20,281 nt of DNA from a virus, in IMG/VR virus record IMGVR_UViG_3300025070_000312, positions 1-20,281 of that record. One strand, given 5' to 3'. The notes below the pieces were generated by a model. The model saw nothing but the letters and a program-made list of their open reading frames with translations. It made no database searches and was not told the origin of the DNA. The position numbers and the translations under genes were made by a program. This document shows positions 1,522-19,886 of this stretch, in pieces (the stretch's first letter is position 1; each line of letters opens with the position of its first letter).

Positions 1522-1906
1522 TAAGCTCATAGGGCCTGTGACTGGTCTCTTAGACAAGTTTATACCTGATGCTGACACTAAGGCTAAGTTAGCCCATGAA
1601 GTCGCTACGATGGCTGAGGAACACGCTCAGGAGCTTGCTAAGGGTCAGATGGAGATCAATGCTGTGGAAGCAGCTAACTCCAACGTGTTCGTAAGCGGCT
1701 GGAGGCCCTTCATTGGCTGGACATGTGGCTTAGGTATGTTTGGAAACTTTATTACCATCCCGTTTAGTAACTTTGTTTTGGCTTTATTTGGTATAGATAT
1801 AATTATACCTCTGGTACCTCTGGAAACTATGATGCCAGTGTTGATGGGTATGTTAGGCTTAGGTGCAATGAGAACTTACGAGAAGAAATCTGGAGTGTCT
1901 AAGTAA
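1514..1906 (+). CDS. Holin of the three-transmembrane GTA type
   Basis: A 130-residue protein starting at ATG 1514 (MIDKLIGPV). A longer form from a TTG at 1493 is possible but would put most of its extension inside the previous gene. Residues 1-55 are a soluble amphipathic region (DADTKAKLAHEVATMAEEHA). The signature SGWRPFIGW at residues 61-69 leads into about three hydrophobic segments (roughly 64-82, 84-100 and 104-119) and a basic tail (RTYEKKSGVSK). This order matches the 'holin of 3TMs' family first described for gene-transfer-agent release. Such proteins permeabilise the inner membrane so that a lytic enzyme can reach the wall. No endolysin gene is adjacent. The stop overlaps the next start as TAATG. 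Confidence 0.85.
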   Translation: MIDKLIGPVTGLLDKFIPDADTKAKLAHEVATMAEEHAQELAKGQMEINAVEAANSNVFVSGWRPFIGWTCGLGMFGNFITIPFSNFVLALFGIDIIIPLVPLETMMPVLMGMLGLGAMRTYEKKSGVSK

Positions 1907-3996
1907 TGAGTGAAAGAAGATTTCTCAGTGATTTATATCACGGACAACCTGACCAAGATACTTTTGAAGGTTTCTGGCAGCGAAAAGCTAACGAAACAAC
2001 CGCTACTCTTCAACGATTGCTTGACAACGACGCAGCAACTTTTTTAAACTTAGCTTTAAAGGAGATTGAAACTCAGCTACTAAGCGGCGCTGAAGTCATA
2101 AACAATCCTCTTAAAGTAGGTGTTTTAAGTCAATTAGGCTTTGACATTTCTTCAGGTAAAATACCAGAGTTTTTCACAGAAATATTTGGAGACAACGACA
2201 CACTTCCTTCTTTAGACGTTGCTACTTTTTTTGGCTTAACTGAAGACCAGTTTAACTCTATACCTGCTCAAGCAGAAAGACTTGAAGCATCTGAAGATCC
2301 TTCTGCTGAAACAGAAGTTACACCTGAAGAAGGCGACACATTTACTTTTGACCAGTTAGTTGATCGTTATAATGATGCTCCAGCAGCACAAGAGTACGGA
2401 CTGTCAGTAACGTATGATCCAGAGACTAATACTTTTGTAGAAGACGTAAGCGGTTTTGGTTTTGAAGGAGACGCTGCAACTAACACGTACACTCCCGAAG
2501 AATTTATGGAGCGTCTTGGGGTAGAAGGAAGTTTTGAAGAAACACAAGTTGAGACAGAAGTTGCTAGACCAGAAGGCACTGTAAACTTAGAAGACCTTAC
2601 TGAAGAACAGGTAGGCACGTTTTGGCCTGAGATTCAAGAGTCTTTAGAAAGTTTAGGAGGCGCAGTAAAACAAGCTGTTTTTGGTCCCGGCGGTGTACCT
2701 AAGACTCCAGACGAGTTACTAGAAGCTATTGAAACAGGAGTTATGGAAGGTCTTAAGGGGCCTATTGCTGTTACGTTTGATCCAGAAGTTGGAGTAACAC
2801 TAGACCTCAAAATACCCGTAGGTTTTGAAATAAATGGTACTTCTTTACAGCTACCTGTTTTTAATGAAGACGGTCAGTTTGTTTTAGGTCAATCTATAGA
2901 AACTGCTATAAACCAAGCTGGCGAGCTTATAACAGCAACCGGTGACAAAATAGGAGACATCTTTACTGATGGTCAAGGCAACATTGTTCTTGATGTTATA
3001 GACGCAGGACAAGTTGTTCTTGAAGGTTTAGGAGTAACAGAAAGCGGTAATATTATAGGCACTCTAGCTGAAAACGCTATAGGCGACTTTATTTTTAACC
3101 AGAATACGGGGCAGCCTGAGCTTACAGAAGAAGTAGACATTACTACAGACGACACTACTGACGATGACACTACTGTTGACGGTGGTGACGACGTAGTAGA
3201 CAGAGATGATCCAAAAGTAGTTCCATTAACAGGCCCGGAAGATCCAGAAGAGCTAACCGAAGAACCCATAAAACCACCTAAAGGTTCTCAGTACATTGAT
3301 GACAAAGCAGGAAACATTGTTGGTGCAATAGGCCCAGACGGTACTGTTTACAACGTAGACGAAAACGGTGAGTGGTCAGTATCTACTTCAGACGTAGTAA
3401 CAGAAGGAGGAACAACAGTCCTTCCCGGTGAAACTACAATAGGTGACGGTGTTTCTGGTGATAACACTCCTGTTAGTGGCCGTGGTGACGACGTAGTAGA
3501 CATAGATGATCCAAAAGTAATTCCATTAACAGACCCGGACGATCCAATAGAACTACAACTAACAGAAGATACTGATGATGACGGAGGTGGCGACGGAGGT
3601 GGCGACGGAGGTGGCGACGGAGGTGGCGACGGAGGTGGAAATGGACAACCTCCTTTAAGCGGAGGTGGCGACAATGGTGGCAATGGACAACCTCCTTTAG
3701 ACGGAGGTGGCGACAATGGTGGCAATGGACAACCTCCTTTAGACGGTGGTGGCGACGGAGGTGGCGACGACGATCCTCCAGAAGAACCACCTTTAGTCGG
3801 ACCAGCAGGGCCAACAGGACCGACAGGTGCAACAGGTGCAGCAGGAGCAGCAGGTGCACCGGGGTCCCGTGGTGGATACATGGGTGGATTAAGTTATCAG
3901 TTGCCGCAGTTTGTAGGAGTACAGTACCAGCCTAAAGACTACACTGTTGAGTTGGACCGTATTATTAACGAAAGTTTGTTTAAAGGGATGATCTAA
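1906..3996 (+). CDS. Acidic virion protein with glycine-rich and collagen-like repeats
   Basis: A 696-residue, strongly acidic protein. Residues 1-110 are helical, and residues 225-420 look globular. Two near-identical segments (GDDVVDxDDPKVxPLT) start near residues 427 and 527. Residues 559-578 are GGGD tandem repeats, residues 581-622 are three 14-residue GQPPLxGGGD units, and residues 632-655 are eight collagen-type G-X-Y triplets. A conserved-looking tail follows (GLSYQLPQFVGVQYQPKDY). Collagen-like repeats in phages occur in fibres and surface appendages. The setting between holin and tail adaptor suggests a structural protein, perhaps an appendage or tail component. Codon use is A/T-rich. 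I cannot name a specific homologue. The start is coupled to the upstream stop (TAATG), and the stop is coupled to the next gene in the same way. Confidence 0.85.
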   Translation: MSERRFLSDLYHGQPDQDTFEGFWQRKANETTATLQRLLDNDAATFLNLALKEIETQLLSGAEVINNPLKVGVLSQLGFDISSGKIPEFFTEIFGDNDTLPSLDVATFFGLTEDQFNSIPAQAERLEASEDPSAETEVTPEEGDTFTFDQLVDRYNDAPAAQEYGLSVTYDPETNTFVEDVSGFGFEGDAATNTYTPEEFMERLGVEGSFEETQVETEVARPEGTVNLEDLTEEQVGTFWPEIQESLESLGGAVKQAVFGPGGVPKTPDELLEAIETGVMEGLKGPIAVTFDPEVGVTLDLKIPVGFEINGTSLQLPVFNEDGQFVLGQSIETAINQAGELITATGDKIGDIFTDGQGNIVLDVIDAGQVVLEGLGVTESGNIIGTLAENAIGDFIFNQNTGQPELTEEVDITTDDTTDDDTTVDGGDDVVDRDDPKVVPLTGPEDPEELTEEPIKPPKGSQYIDDKAGNIVGAIGPDGTVYNVDENGEWSVSTSDVVTEGGTTVLPGETTIGDGVSGDNTPVSGRGDDVVDIDDPKVIPLTDPDDPIELQLTEDTDDDGGGDGGGDGGGDGGGDGGGNGQPPLSGGGDNGGNGQPPLDGGGDNGGNGQPPLDGGGDGGGDDDPPEEPPLVGPAGPTGPTGATGAAGAAGAPGSRGGYMGGLSYQLPQFVGVQYQPKDYTVELDRIINESLFKGMI
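3182..3546 (+). repeat. 65-bp imperfect direct repeat, copies exactly 300 bp apart
   Basis: Bases 3182-3246 and 3482-3546 align with four mismatches over 65 bases and no gaps. Both copies are in frame within the collagen-like protein, giving two copies of an acidic DDPKV module exactly 100 residues apart. This indicates an internal duplication. Confidence 0.9.
3580..3639 (+). repeat. 12-bp tandem repeat (GGGD units)
   Basis: Four perfect copies of GACGGAGGTGGC and a fifth differing at the last base, all in frame, encode D-G-G-G repeats. A purine-rich array like this could vary in length by replication slippage without shifting the frame. Confidence 0.95.
3646..3771 (+). repeat. 42-bp tandem repeat, three units (GQPPL modules)
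   Basis: Units at 3646-3687, 3688-3729 and 3730-3771 each begin CAACCTCCTTTA. The first two differ only by AGC versus GAC after that opening; the third diverges near its end. They encode 14-residue PPL-GGGD-NGGN modules between the GGGD array and the collagen-like segment. Confidence 0.95.
3799..3870 (+). repeat. Collagen-like G-X-Y segment
   Basis: Eight consecutive Gly-X-Y triplets are encoded (GPAGPTGPTGATGAAGAAG, then GAP and GSR). Short collagen-like stretches trimerise in phage structural proteins. The segment lies close to the C-terminus, just ahead of the final conserved-looking domain. Confidence 0.85.
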
Positions 3997-14588: not shown

Positions 14589-15420
14589 TGTGTACCTCTA
14601 CTAAATAACGTGGACCTGATGAATATGCGAACCCTCTGACCGAAGGCCAACATTCCTTTTTGTAAGAGCAGTAAGAACATCCTACGGCGAGTTTCTGGTT
14701 GCCACTCTTTCCATCTGCGATAGGTTCGTAGCATACCTCTGGTGGCTCCTCCTGCTCTACCATCTTTTTTATGTGTTCAATCCTGTCCCTAATGTCGTAA
14801 GAAATCAGGTCATGGATAGGAGCCTGAGTGTCCTCTGTATCGTACAGTAGGTACGTCAGGTGTCCATTCTGTTTGTCCATTGCCAGCCAACCAAACTTAG
14901 TTTCTCCTTCGGAGTGCGCGTATCCTTTGATCTGCGCCACGTACCCAAAAGGATCGTCATAAGCCAGTGTGCCTTCTTTGAACTTCTTGAAGGCAAAGGT
15001 GGACGCAGACTTCACGTCAGTCACAACTCCGTCAATCCTGCAGTCCATGGACCCTTTGATACCGTTGACCTCACACTTCTTCTGCTCGTCTGTCACCTCG
15101 TGACCTGCAGCTCTTGTGAGGAACAGTAGTAGTTCTTCAATGATGTGTCCGTAGAGGAACTTGACGTACGTGTGTGGCTGTATGTCTTCACCTTTGTCCA
15201 CATCGTTGTACACGTTCCACAGGAAGCGATCCTCACGCCCTATGTTGGACATACGTAGCTTACGTGAGTCGTCCCTCTTCTGTGTGAACTCTTGTCGCAT
15301 GAGTACCTTCACGGCTTCACCGAACTGGTCTATACATGCTTCAATGTCCACTCCTTCTGCTACTTCTTTGGACTCCACAAGTTTATATATGTCACTAACT
15401 AGGTTGTAAGTGCTTTTCAT
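14554..15420 (-). CDS. PD-(D/E)XK (RecB/Cas4-like) exonuclease with probable Fe-S cluster
   Basis: A 288-residue nuclease. Motifs in order: GHIIEEL at 91-97 (H92, E95/E96), SMDCRIDGVVTDVKSAS at 124-140 with D126 or D130 and the D135-V-K137 pair, then QIKGY at 163-167, the usual QxxxY helix. Four cysteines in the C-terminal part (C230, and C248-x2-C251-x5-C257) resemble the cluster ligands of Cas4/AddB-type nucleases. It probably degrades one strand of duplex DNA and is the likely functional counterpart of the T7 gp6 exonuclease, which is not related in sequence. Its start overlaps the stop of the GIY-YIG gene (ATGA). The nuclease fold is well supported; polarity and the metal cluster are inferred. 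Confidence 0.87.
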   Translation of the reverse strand: MKSTYNLVSDIYKLVESKEVAEGVDIEACIDQFGEAVKVLMRQEFTQKRDDSRKLRMSNIGREDRFLWNVYNDVDKGEDIQPHTYVKFLYGHIIEELLLFLTRAAGHEVTDEQKKCEVNGIKGSMDCRIDGVVTDVKSASTFAFKKFKEGTLAYDDPFGYVAQIKGYAHSEGETKFGWLAMDKQNGHLTYLLYDTEDTQAPIHDLISYDIRDRIEHIKKMVEQEEPPEVCYEPIADGKSGNQKLAVGCSYCSYKKECWPSVRGFAYSSGPRYLVEVHNEPKVQEIEVS

Positions 15421-15884
15421 TTGTACTCTTCCGCTGTACTAGAGACGACAACTCTGGCCTCCTCCGGTGTGCATTTGAACCACTCGCCTTTACGTTCGTA
15501 GGACTTCTGTAGCTCTGTGTGTGCCTGTGATTCTGCTTCTCTTCGATTGTTTACATCATAGTAATATTGTAACACATAATCCCTAAAAGGTGAAGAAGTT
15601 TGGTAGTTATTTAGGCGGTCCTCAGCGTCAATAGCCATCCCTACTTTCACCCAGTCAGGGAAGTTAGGGTTGGTAATGACGTACACCTGACCCTCGACAC
15701 TGCTTTCGTACTTCTCTAGGCTGCTGAAGGCTGCTTGTTCAAAGTTCTTGTAGCGTCCGGGTTTGTGTAAAGGGTGATGCTTAGAGATGTATTTACCGTT
15801 TACGTACATCTGTAAATCGTTTTCCCTACGCTTAACTTCGGGGTTGTCCTTGTAGTATTTCCCGTCTACTTTTTGATAAGACAT
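15417..15884 (-). CDS. GIY-YIG-type nuclease, T5orf172-like
   Basis: The start at ATG 15884 is set by AAGGAG 7 bases upstream; an upstream in-frame extension would overlap the polymerase stop. In the 155-residue product, residues 66-137 carry a degenerate GIY-YIG pattern: GQVYVIT (Y69), then VKVG at 79-82, RLNNY at 90-94, E118 with H122, and GEWFK at 133-137. This order is typical of the T5orf172/MUG113 branch. Residues 1-60 are basic (VKRRENDLQMYVNGKYISKH) and may bind DNA. Such proteins can be free-standing homing endonucleases or phage DNA-processing enzymes. Codon use matches the neighbours, so it is not a recent arrival by that measure. Substrate unknown. Confidence 0.82.
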   Translation of the reverse strand: MSYQKVDGKYYKDNPEVKRRENDLQMYVNGKYISKHHPLHKPGRYKNFEQAAFSSLEKYESSVEGQVYVITNPNFPDWVKVGMAIDAEDRLNNYQTSSPFRDYVLQYYYDVNNRREAESQAHTELQKSYERKGEWFKCTPEEARVVVSSTAEEYK

Positions 15885-15891
15885 GATAAAA

Positions 15892-15897
15892 CTCCTT
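15892..15897 (-). promoter_or_regulatory. Ribosome-binding site fixing the GIY-YIG gene start
   Basis: AAGGAG on the minus strand, 7 bases before ATG 15884. It overlaps the polymerase stop codon, so ribosomes finishing the polymerase can re-initiate here. Confidence 0.75.
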
Positions 15898-17527
15898 AGT
15901 GTGTCTCTGCCCATGTTGTTCCAACTTTGTACTCACCGTCCAGAGGACACCTCAAGTTAAACTCAATACCTGCAGCCTTGAGGCACTCCACTGCTAACCA
16001 GCCAAACTTCTCTGCGTCTTTCTCTACTACTTCTGTCTGCACTTCATCATGTATGTTCCCTATGATCTTGTAGTCCAGATTCCATAGCTTTGCGTAGTCG
16101 TCCAAGATCACCAGAGCTTTCTTCATTACGATAGCTCCTGCTGCTTGCAACAACGTGTTCAACGCTGAGTGTTCTGATCTGACTAGGAGTCTCCTTCCGT
16201 CGAGTCCTGTGAGGTATCCTCTTGCTGAAGCGTTTGAAACTCTCTCCTTAAGAGCTGCGAATGATGGCAGATTATGTAGGAAAGATTCTCTAAGGTTTTT
16301 GCCAGCTTTTCTACCTCCTCCAGCCACAGACCCAAGCTTTTCATCTCCGGCTCCGTATAAGAGTGCATAGATGAAAGTCTTAGCCTGATTTCTTGATTCA
16401 AGTCCAGCAAGTCGTTGATTTGTTGTGTGGATATCACCGTTAATGATTTCATTTGTATAGTCCTCGTCCTTCATGTAGTGTGCCAGCATACGCAACTCAA
16501 GACCACTGGCGTCGAAACCCACTAGCTTCTTACCTTCAGGCACAGTCCAGCAGGAACGACACTCGTGTCCGTACGGGCTGTGACTTGCGGGTACTTGGGC
16601 CATGTTGGGTGACTGGTGTGTCATGCGTCCTGTGACTGCTCCGTTGCTGATGACCCTGCCATGGACTCTACCGTCTTCCTTGACATGCTCCAGCCATGAG
16701 TTTACCTGTGCATATCTTTTTTGTAGCATCAAGTACTCACTCACAACTTTTGCTTCCGGTAGATCAATGGTGTCTAGGACTGCTTCATCAACTATTGGGT
16801 TACCCTTCTCCGTGAGTTTGTCAAAGCTAACCCCAAGGCTCGAAAGCCTCTTCGCAATCTGCTGCCTAGACCCTACATTGAAGACCTCAACCTTGTCCTT
16901 GAGTCGCTTCCCAGTCTTCTCTGACCATCTTTCGTGGATGATAGGTGGAAACTTCTTCTGCAACTCTTCCTCAATGTCATTCATCTTCTCCTTAAATGTG
17001 GAACACAAGTCTCTAGCCAAAGACTGATCCAGAACCCAACCGTTTTTCTCTTGCTGCTGCACTGCTACTTGTACTTTATGCTCTAGCTCAATGCTTGCAG
17101 GTGAGAAGCAGGTCATCTCCTCCATCAACTTCTGGTGTACTGCTTCCGTTACTTCTACGTCTCTGATACAGTAGTCAATCATCTCTTGTGACAACTGCGA
17201 CCAGTCACTGTGGTCACCCTTTGGGAACCCTAATTCATTACCCCAGTTCCTCAGTGAGTGTCCTCCTGACTTGCTAGGCTCACACAAACGTGACAAAACC
17301 AGTGTATCGACGACCCTATCAGAAGCCACTGAGACGCCCCAGAGACGCTCTAGGACAGGGATGTCGTATCCTATTAGGTTGTGCCCAACGACGCTCTGTG
17401 AGCCTCTGAGGGCCTCTGACAGGCTATCTGGGTCCACATGTACCAGTGTTGCGTCGTCTTCCTTGGTTACAACGCACCAAATGGTGTCAGGAGTCAAACC
17501 ATTGGCCTCAAGATCAAGATAAATCAT
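15896..17527 (-). CDS. polA: Family A DNA polymerase with proofreading exonuclease (T7 gp5-like)
   Basis: The replicative polymerase, 543 residues from ATG 17527, chosen for GAGGAG 11 bases upstream. The alternative start nine codons earlier would include that site. Proofreading 3'-5' exonuclease: D5 and E7 (YLDLEA), D55 (HNLIGYD), Y119-x3-D123. Polymerase: motif A FDASGLELR with D339, motif B R379-x3-K383-x3-Y387 followed by YGAG, motif C HDE at 493-495. The last residues (RCPLDGEYKVGTTWAETH) also match T7 gp5. Compared with T7 gp5 (704 residues) it is compact: the region between about 190 and 216 replaces the roughly 80-residue thioredoxin-binding insertion and its flanks. Y387 corresponds to E. 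coli Pol I position 762, as in T7. It starts 2 bases after the PP-loop gene. Confidence 0.96.
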   Translation of the reverse strand: MIYLDLEANGLTPDTIWCVVTKEDDATLVHVDPDSLSEALRGSQSVVGHNLIGYDIPVLERLWGVSVASDRVVDTLVLSRLCEPSKSGGHSLRNWGNELGFPKGDHSDWSQLSQEMIDYCIRDVEVTEAVHQKLMEEMTCFSPASIELEHKVQVAVQQQEKNGWVLDQSLARDLCSTFKEKMNDIEEELQKKFPPIIHERWSEKTGKRLKDKVEVFNVGSRQQIAKRLSSLGVSFDKLTEKGNPIVDEAVLDTIDLPEAKVVSEYLMLQKRYAQVNSWLEHVKEDGRVHGRVISNGAVTGRMTHQSPNMAQVPASHSPYGHECRSCWTVPEGKKLVGFDASGLELRMLAHYMKDEDYTNEIINGDIHTTNQRLAGLESRNQAKTFIYALLYGAGDEKLGSVAGGGRKAGKNLRESFLHNLPSFAALKERVSNASARGYLTGLDGRRLLVRSEHSALNTLLQAAGAIVMKKALVILDDYAKLWNLDYKIIGNIHDEVQTEVVEKDAEKFGWLAVECLKAAGIEFNLRCPLDGEYKVGTTWAETH

Positions 17528-17529
17528 TA

Positions 17530-18279
17530 TTAAAATAACTCCTCTTGTTTCCACTCACAGGAGAATCCACAGTCTGCTGGCATGTCCCTTTTAAAGTTTC
17601 CTCTGAAAGGATCTAGCTCGTCCAAAAACACAGGACCTTTAACATCTTTTAGAAGAGCGTGACCAAGCTTTCTTTCAAGTTTAGCCATCCTATTAAAAGA
17701 ATCTGGGAAGTCTACTCTAATAGCGTTCCAATACCCCATACCTCCTTTTACACACCCGACACAATTGTTATTAGAATAGCCTAGCTTGTACATTGTAGGA
17801 AGGTCTATCCCCATATCTTGAACAAACTCTAAACATTCTTTTTTAGTTATATCTTTCTCTAAAAGAACAAACCAAGTATACACATCGTTGTTGGAGTCAA
17901 TGAACCTATTAGCTCTGTCCTCTTCTTCGACAGTGTATCCAAATACTTGAACATCTTTTGGTCTTTGGTATTCTTGTCTGACTTGTTTTTTTAGAAGTCT
18001 TGTGCAAGGTGCCCCGGTAGGACCTTTAATAAACTTAGTTTTCTCAAACACCTCATATATAGATCCTGAGTACTTGTCGTTTATTATGGTTTTAACGTCT
18101 ATCCCTGTTATTTCAGAAAACTGGTTTAGTAGTTTTTTGTTGTCGCTATGCTCTTCAACAACCTCGCAATAAACAGCCTCAAACTCAAAAGAATCTGAAT
18201 ACTCTTTATTAGCTAGATATGTTGCATAAGCACTAGCGGCTCCGCAGCTAAACCAACTTATTACTCTAGGCTTTGTCAA
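17530..18279 (-). CDS. PP-loop protein of the PAPS reductase family
   Basis: A 249-residue protein. The PP-loop is at residues 9-16 (WFSCGAAS, a variant of SGGxxS), which binds the alpha/beta phosphates of ATP-type nucleotides. Other family-typical blocks are EEHSDNKKLL, the GPTGAPCTRLLKK stretch, VQVFGYTVEEEDRANRF, and the cysteine motif NNNCVGCVKGGMGYW. A final CGFSC pair follows. It matches a phage and mobile-element clade usually named phosphoadenosine phosphosulfate reductase family; the true substrate is unknown. The start is a TTG overlapping the helicase stop (TTGA) with GGAG 7 bases upstream, and no ATG exists before the PP-loop. Third-position G/C is low (11 of the first 40 codons by hand count), unlike the neighbouring genes, suggesting later acquisition. 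DNA or RNA sulfur chemistry is possible but unproven. Confidence 0.85.
   Translation of the reverse strand: MTKPRVISWFSCGAASAYATYLANKEYSDSFEFEAVYCEVVEEHSDNKKLLNQFSEITGIDVKTIINDKYSGSIYEVFEKTKFIKGPTGAPCTRLLKKQVRQEYQRPKDVQVFGYTVEEEDRANRFIDSNNDVYTWFVLLEKDITKKECLEFVQDMGIDLPTMYKLGYSNNNCVGCVKGGMGYWNAIRVDFPDSFNRMAKLERKLGHALLKDVKGPVFLDELDPFRGNFKRDMPADCGFSCEWKQEELF
17539..17544 (-). promoter_or_regulatory. Ribosome-binding site fixing the DNA polymerase start
   Basis: GAGGAG on the minus strand, inside the last codons of the PP-loop gene, 11 bases before ATG 17527. It favours MIYLDLEANG as the true N-terminus, which places the exonuclease D5 and E7 at the same positions as in T7 gp5. Confidence 0.7.
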
Positions 18280-19886
18280 AAGTCGTCTCCAACGTGAGGG
18301 TTAGGTACTTCACTCAGCCTACCGGTAGACCTGTCGTAAGAAAGGTAGCAAGCAGGGCCAGTTTCGCCAGTGTAACGATTCTTGAGGACACGTACTGTTG
18401 TTGTGTTCCTGATGTCTTCGTTCTCATGTTGCTGATCTCGCTCCATACCTATAACTATGTCGGACAGTTGTGCAATCGCCTGTGACCCTCTGAGTTCACC
18501 TAGACTGATCTGGGCACCGTCTTCATGTGCTTTGCCCTGTGAACGTCGTAGGTGTGACACGAGGAACAAGCAGATGCCTGTCTCTGCCACGAGTGTCCTG
18601 AGTTTAGTCATGATCTCGTCGATTGCCTTACGCTCGTCACCGGACTCCTGAGAAGAAACAACGATACTCAGGTGGTCCAAGATCACAAACCGGCAGTCCA
18701 GAGCCTTAGCCATGTACCGCACACGTCCCAGAAGGTTGTCAGCAGAAGTAGAACCCCAGTGGTCAAACAAGTAGTACCGTCCTGTACCCATGGTTGATTC
18801 CCAGAAGGGTCTGAGGTCCTCCACGGGTGTGTCCTCTTCCAGATGTAGAGGTCTGTTGGCGGCTACTGACATGATGCCCAGTGTCGTCCGTGACAAGTCC
18901 TCTTCCAACGCTAGGACACCAATGTTACCTTCGCAACGCTTGAGTAAGTCGTACTCGATCTCACGTATGAATTGAGACTTACCCATGCCACTGCCACTGG
19001 TGATGGTCACGAGTTCGTAGGGACGATGGCCTCTAGTGATGTGATTCAGGCCGTCCCATGGGTAAGGGATCGACTTGACATTACGTTTTTCAACTAAATT
19101 TTCCCATGTGTCCGTACCAGCGACGATACCGTCGGGTCTGTAGGTCTTGGCATTCCACCATGCTTGCGTAAAGTCCTTGACTCTGTTAGCCATGAGCATG
19201 TCGCCAGCGTCCTTGAGTGGTAGCTTGACGATCTTGAGCTTGTTGGGGCTAAAGAGGTCCTTGACTTGATCTACTGCAGAGTCACCTGCTTTGTCGTTGT
19301 CAAAACACACGACGACATTCTCGTAGGACTCAAGCCACTCCAGTTGTTCCTTGACTTCCTTTGCCGCATTAGAAGCCCCGGACCGAAGTGAAACCACGTC
19401 CCACTGTCTGCCTGACATCTCGTACACTGCCAAGGCGTCCAACTCACCTTCAGTGATGGTGATGTACTTGTTTGTTTTACATTGGTGTTGACCAAAGAAC
19501 CCAACTCCGGTTACGTCACCGCTAGTGTGGAAGTTCTTGGTCTTCACCTCACGTACTTTTGCTGAGGCTACTTCACCTGTGTCTAGGTTGTAGTACGGGT
19601 AGTAGTGCCTCACGATGTCGCCTGTAGTCGAGTACTCCACAGTCACACCAAACTTACCACAAGTGTCCTGTGACAGACGTCTGTGTGGTATTGCTGCTAC
19701 GACTCCAAACATGTTCAGAGGTTTCGCAGTTGTTACTTTTGTTGCTTGTGTAGTCATACCTGTAAGGCCATTGTAGTGGTAGTTACAACCGGCGCTGAAA
19801 CAATGTGCGCCGTCGTCGTCATAGATAGCTAGGGAGTCCGAAGAACCACACTTCGGACAACCCTCATGTCTAATGAATTTAGCCAT
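18276..19886 (-). CDS. Primase-helicase (T7 gp4-like)
   Basis: A bifunctional replication protein of 536 residues (T7 gp4 has 566) that makes RNA primers and unwinds DNA 5'-3' as a hexamer. Zinc-binding primase domain: C10, C13, C29, C34. TOPRIM primase core: TEGELDALA at 145-153 and CFDNDKAG at 194-201. RecA-type helicase: Walker A GSGMGKS at 298-304, Walker B VILDH at 401-405, SHLRR at 444-448, and LKNRYTG with R504 as the probable arginine finger. The first zinc-binding Cys is 10 residues from the start, so the N-terminus is intact. The C-terminus is acidic and ends GDDF; in T7 gp4 an acidic, Phe-ended tail contacts the polymerase. The start follows the SSB stop by 2 bases. Confidence 0.96.
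   Translation of the reverse strand: MAKFIRHEGCPKCGSSDSLAIYDDDGAHCFSAGCNYHYNGLTGMTTQATKVTTAKPLNMFGVVAAIPHRRLSQDTCGKFGVTVEYSTTGDIVRHYYPYYNLDTGEVASAKVREVKTKNFHTSGDVTGVGFFGQHQCKTNKYITITEGELDALAVYEMSGRQWDVVSLRSGASNAAKEVKEQLEWLESYENVVVCFDNDKAGDSAVDQVKDLFSPNKLKIVKLPLKDAGDMLMANRVKDFTQAWWNAKTYRPDGIVAGTDTWENLVEKRNVKSIPYPWDGLNHITRGHRPYELVTITSGSGMGKSQFIREIEYDLLKRCEGNIGVLALEEDLSRTTLGIMSVAANRPLHLEEDTPVEDLRPFWESTMGTGRYYLFDHWGSTSADNLLGRVRYMAKALDCRFVILDHLSIVVSSQESGDERKAIDEIMTKLRTLVAETGICLFLVSHLRRSQGKAHEDGAQISLGELRGSQAIAQLSDIVIGMERDQQHENEDIRNTTTVRVLKNRYTGETGPACYLSYDRSTGRLSEVPNPHVGDDF
18287..18290 (-). promoter_or_regulatory. Ribosome-binding site supporting a TTG start
   Basis: GGAG on the minus strand 7 bases before TTG 18279. 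Together with the TTGA overlap with the helicase stop it supports TTG as the initiator of the PP-loop gene, because no ATG precedes the PP-loop motif. Confidence 0.65.

Follow-up and report, generated by a model that had tools for sequence, protein, structure and literature searches.

A PptA-type PP-loop gene at the helicase/polymerase junction of a T7-like marine phage

Described relatives of the PP-loop protein and its family assignment

The described proteins with which the PP-loop protein studied here can be compared are SspD, DndC and CysH, and the phage proteins PptA and NinC. The partner of SspD is the desulfurase SspA, and in DndC a [4Fe-4S] cluster accepts the sulfur (PMC7188994). Those nin genes of phage lambda that have been tested by CRISPRi were dispensable if Q was supplied (PMC10695390). 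Viral cysH and PAPS reductase annotations have been reported as sulfur-assimilation auxiliary genes, leading to the argument that viruses steer the sulfur cycle (PMC11041744). PptA is chain C of PDB entry 21fy, which is identical to a protein of Vibrio phage vB_VhaP_VH-5 (QGH73774.1); a literature search found no paper on PptA or explaining its name, and none of the three neighboring VH-5 proteins searched in the PDB matched entry 21fy.

The DNA analyzed here, referred to as the window, is a stretch of 20,281 nucleotides (IMG/VR record IMGVR_UViG_3300025070_000312) and represents part of a T7-like marine phage genome. Its plus strand carries structural genes. Its minus strand carries the replication genes, namely those for SSB, a primase-helicase, the PP-loop protein, a family A polymerase, a T5orf172-domain protein, a Cas4-type exonuclease, endonuclease I, DUF3310 and a ribonucleotide reductase. 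No PHROG matched the 696-aa protein encoded at 1906–3996, in which low-complexity GDGGG repeats and collagen-like GPTGATG repeats occur. The features of the locus are as follows.

17530..18279, minus strand: PptA-type PP-loop protein (PHROG 424), 249 aa, TTG start (ORF and profile match)
17530..18279, minus strand: variant PP-loop S11-C-G-A-A-S16 and conserved cysteines C92, C173, C176, C237 and C241 (alignment of relatives)
18276..19886, minus strand: T7-type primase-helicase, the stop of which overlaps the TTG start of the PP-loop gene (ORF and domain match)
15896..17527, minus strand: family A DNA polymerase (ORF and domain match, sister comparison)
17527..18275, minus strand: segment missing in sister phages, net insert ~752 bp, TGA at both edges (sister-contig DNA matches)

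The window protein matched PHROG 424 over its full length (6.3e-43, residues 2–246). The only PDB relative detectable by sequence was PptA (phmmer, 2.7e-74), an end-to-end homologue with ~49% identity and the same motifs and cysteines; pptA sits between the RNA polymerase and head genes in VH-5, whereas the window gene lies between the helicase and polymerase genes. In PADLOC, the window protein matched SspD (1.2e-10), and all 37 family members (37/37) matched SspD and no other PADLOC family. When a profile of the 37 relatives was compared with those of described proteins, SspD aligned over 215 columns (hhalign 98.6%, E 6.5e-16), followed by lambda NinC (E 9e-10), CysH (E 2.6e-4) and DndC (E 0.39); these E-values are a rough ranking only, the compared alignments differing in depth. 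The best match of the SspD profile in the PDB was 21fy PptA (3.7e-11). The initial annotation had proposed kinship with sulfur-inserting PP-loop enzymes, and this held for SspD, which is much nearer than CysH by profile, but not for DndC, for which the profile E-value was not significant and no PADLOC match to the window protein was obtained at E ≤ 1. Judged by these profiles, the nearest characterized family of the window protein is SspD, of the Ssp DNA phosphorothioation system.

The variant PP-loop and the CVGC and CGFSC cysteine clusters, which had been noted from the sequence at the outset, were confirmed, and in an alignment of 37 diverse relatives the serines and glycine of the loop and the four cysteines (C173 and C176; C237 and C241) were invariant. 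The residues invariant in 37/37 relatives were S11, G13, S16, D46, G89, C92, K97, G114, E119, R122, N172, C173, C176, K178, C237 and C241, and the window protein carries the whole family signature: an S-x-G-x-x-S loop, C-T-x-x-LK, NC-x-GC and a C-x3-C tail. SspD shares with it, across the 215-column alignment, the C-T-x-x-x-K and CxxC cysteine triad, with C92, C173 and C176 aligning with the invariant C85, C170 and C173 of SspD. In contrast, SspD has SGGKDS, DTG and RWCT, of which the window protein has lost the first two: the SGGKDS of SspD and DndC is replaced by SCGAAS, and DTG by EEHxDN. DndC is similar in its PP-loop fold and its C-T-x-x-x-K and CxxC motifs, but is larger and has SGGKDS. 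With the Lys-Asp of SGGKDS missing from the PP-loop and DTG changed to EEHxDN, ordinary ATP pyrophosphatase activity is doubtful.

These motifs also bear on the possibility that the protein is an assimilatory PAPS or APS reductase, i.e., the product of an auxiliary metabolic gene that raises the cysteine supply during infection, which the initial annotation had called the dull alternative. The database name of PHROG 424 is "PAPS reductase," and at a threshold of E ≤ 1, PF01507 was matched by 29 of the 38 close relatives, the best E-value being 1.8e-6, but the window protein itself had no significant Pfam match and no match to the CysH or APS reductase models of NCBIfam. The likeness to CysH comprises the fold, a partial match to the APS-type Fe-S cysteines and the tail; the [DE]C[GS][ILF]xC tail of the family is reminiscent of ECGLH in CysH as well as of CSESCE in NinC. 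However, CysH has invariant D46 T47 G48, G123 and R125, and the window protein lacks DTG, has Thr in place of the G-x-R arginine (G-Y-T; Thr, Asp or Glu in relatives), and ends in DCGFSC, which keeps the Cys and Gly of ECGLH without the His. SspD is far nearer by profile, and no further gene for sulfate assimilation was noticed in the window. By its motifs, the window protein is not a PAPS reductase, and we regard an assimilatory role as quite improbable. Because the family lacks several of the motifs that define PAPS reductases and is nearer to SspD, the sulfate-assimilation label calls for caution, and this family, which is widespread in marine phages, should be counted as sulfate assimilation only after testing.

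The AlphaFold2 model has a PP-loop fold (pLDDT 87), with the last residues poorly defined. In fold comparisons, PAPS/APS reductases scored Z 11–12 and gave the best VIA-align rows (up to 11.8), which favors a reductase, and LarE, NcsA and TtuA scored ~10–10.6 and GMP synthetases ~10; entry 21fy was absent among the Foldseek and VIA-align rows listed (copy up to 8 April 2026). LarE, NcsA and TtuA use [4Fe-4S]. On the predicted model, the fold scores fail to tell sulfur-transfer enzymes apart from reductases or GMP synthetases, and leave the function undecided.

A clean insertion at the helicase/polymerase junction

The ORF on the minus strand was confirmed, with a TTG start that overlaps the helicase stop by the 4 bp TTGA (junction DNA ...GAC GAC TTT TGA, read as TTG ACA for the PP-loop gene), and GGAG is found 7 bases upstream of the TTG by direct reading of the sequence. 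The start of the window polymerase is most likely the ATG 2 bases past the stop of the PP-loop gene (ATGATTTATCTT), and its sisters use TTGATTTATCTT; the longer polymerase proposed by the ORF caller, with a GTG start at 17554, begins within the PP-loop gene.

That the gene had been inserted late, between two core replication genes, had been suspected from the window, and close sister phages, in which the site is precisely empty, bore this out. A helicase-based scan of IMG/VR returned 79 further contigs with a helicase identity of 82–100%, none of which (0/79) contained the PP-loop gene. Helicase and polymerase were directly joined in 64 of the 79, and the other 15 had another small gene in the slot. 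In the empty-site sisters, the polymerase starts at the same TTG that starts the PP-loop gene in the window. Seven empty-site contigs (L157–L162 and L170) have flanking DNA that is ~96–99% identical to the window on both sides; their matches stop at 18276 and restart at 17526, with a 3-base overlap in the sister contigs. The PP-loop gene is thus a clean accessory insertion exactly at the helicase/polymerase junction. Such pairs of nearly identical phages would allow the effect of the gene to be tested once isolates exist.

The gene occupies the same slot in L002, which is the same phage, and in the more distant L004 (helicase, 88%). In L003 (helicase, ~47–49%), it also lies between helicase and polymerase, together with two more small ORFs, and in the cultured relative Pelagibacter phage HTVC115P, primase and polymerase nearly abut. 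The small genes found in the slot in other sisters were HNH-type genes in five (L174, L176, L178, L207 and L214) and other genes in 10, some of them common to several contigs (L173, L197 and L206). Elsewhere in the window, the T5orf172/MUG113-domain gene (15417–15914), which lies between the polymerase and the exonuclease, was not found in some near-identical sisters (e.g., L158), and its position may be a second variable slot.

Composition, exchange and selection

The initial annotation had also regarded the gene as compositionally foreign. Its count of 11 codons with G or C in the third position (GC3) among the first 40 was reproduced, and the GC3 of the whole gene is 0.332, compared with 0.43–0.58 in the other minus-strand genes, in which no 250-codon stretch falls below 0.444. 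The plus-strand structural genes of the window have GC3 values of 0.22–0.49, several being as low as that of the PP-loop gene or lower, so its GC3 lies within the range of this genome. Furthermore, the gene was below its own neighbors in GC3 at 44 of the 47 related loci where helicase or polymerase is present and at 110 of 128 viral loci, and its GC3 followed the composition of its carrier (r 0.92). Since the same trend is seen in most carriers, we consider the low GC3 to be a habit of the family and no sign of recent arrival. The low value is therefore real, but the claim of foreignness did not stand: the same AT-richness relative to neighbors in most carrier phages rules out GC3 as evidence of a foreign origin.

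Helicase distances agreed with polymerase distances among 17 non-redundant phages (r 0.88), and the distances of the PP-loop gene correlated less well with those of helicase (r 0.46) and polymerase (r 0.51). Between the window and L003, the PP-loop gene is 84% identical and the helicase 47%. This pattern of sequence distances fits an exchange of the gene between phage lineages, although slow evolution of the PP-loop gene may also lower the correlation. The gene is under purifying selection: dN/dS was 0.03–0.16 in close, unsaturated pairs, and 0.035 in the window–L003 pair, in which synonymous sites are near saturation.

These results bear on two alternatives. The gene might be a selfish passenger of no benefit in an insertion hotspot where HNH genes are found too, as the HNH-type genes (5 sisters) and other small genes (10 sisters) found in the slot would suggest; however, no nuclease domain was detected in the window protein, dN/dS is far below 1 and the cysteines are invariant, and we judge this explanation very unlikely. 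Alternatively, the protein could serve counter-defence, as a degenerate SspD/DndC-like subunit or a nucleotide-binding decoy that poisons a host defence based on phosphorothioation or nucleotide signaling. Its degenerate PP-loop in an otherwise SspD-like body, its patchy presence in an accessory slot and its exchange between phage lineages would agree with such a role. Nevertheless, five cysteines and several catalytic-type residues are strictly kept across phages of very different hosts, which suggests chemistry rather than mimicry; the fast evolution of an arms race is not seen (dN/dS 0.03–0.16), and the gene is absent from the nearest sister phages. We consider counter-defence unlikely, but it deserves mention.

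The PptA-type family gave more than 500 candidate stretches in each of two IMG/VR scans, and its relatives were located mainly in replication and nin-type regions; the surroundings of bacterial homologues were inspected by ORF. Clustering of the ORFs around 129 loci revealed no universal partner gene, only lineage-specific replication neighbors. A C5 methyltransferase cluster occurred in 17 loci, a count that stands without a control and was not judged significant. In Synechococcus phage S-SRP01 (MW015080.1; L280 4001–4755), the match to the homologue falls into two pieces, and the annotation covers only part of it, which suggests a frameshift or a sequencing error.

A candidate sulfur-relay role and lambda NinC

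We tentatively favor the reading that this is a mobile accessory ("moron") gene, encoding a putative standalone sulfur-relay protein of the PP-loop type that is a distant relative of SspD, and hold this reading to be plausible, if just short of probable. The target of such a phage-borne enzyme would most likely be a nucleotide or nucleic acid. In the proposed mechanism, C92, C173 and C176, the cysteines aligned with those of SspD, would hold a putative [4Fe-4S] cluster, which, by analogy with the published work on SspD and DndC, could be loaded with sulfur by a cysteine desulfurase of the host, for example IscS. The CxxxC motif of the flexible C-terminal tail (C237 and C241) may then pass the sulfur on or resolve the reaction, and the SCGAAS pocket may accommodate a substrate that is adenylated or linked to a nucleotide in another way, instead of splitting ATP in the usual manner. 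The predicted product is a nucleotide or nucleic acid thiolated in the course of phage replication. The degenerate PP-loop speaks against this reading, as does the lack of a desulfurase among the window proteins scanned, which come from an incomplete contig.

A more specific possibility is that the single gene, using sulfur donors of the host, brings about phosphorothioation of the phage's own DNA. The kinship with SspD and the location inside the replication block speak for it, but the Ssp and Dnd systems need several further proteins (PMC7188994, PMC10853773), and the PP-loop is degenerate. SspD works with SspA, SspB and SspC, whereas no such partner was found beside the window gene; neither sspA, sspB or sspC nor a desulfurase or other phosphorothioation partner was present among the window proteins scanned, the contig being an incomplete fragment. 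We regard this possibility as distinctly unlikely.

Returning to the sulfur-relay reading, a further comparison is offered by lambda NinC (NP_040635.1; L281 582–1454), which belongs to the same PHROG 424 over nearly its full length, has C-T-x-x-L-K, CxxC, a C-x3-C-E tail and the other conserved cysteines seen in the family, and also has SspD as its nearest PADLOC family (1.8e-14). It differs in its PP-loop, SGGRTS, and in keeping DTG, and represents a distinct subfamily. It would be a long shot, but a single phage gene might place sulfur on nucleotides or DNA of the phage with host donors only, without the Dnd or Ssp machinery, with its relative NinC performing the same kind of chemistry; the kinship with NinC provides a laboratory system that is at hand now. 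The PptA-type (SCGAAS) and NinC-type (SGGRTS) subfamilies occur together in L060 (5662–7768, adjacent) and L144 (860–3425), and because they coexist there, they are unlikely to be redundant.
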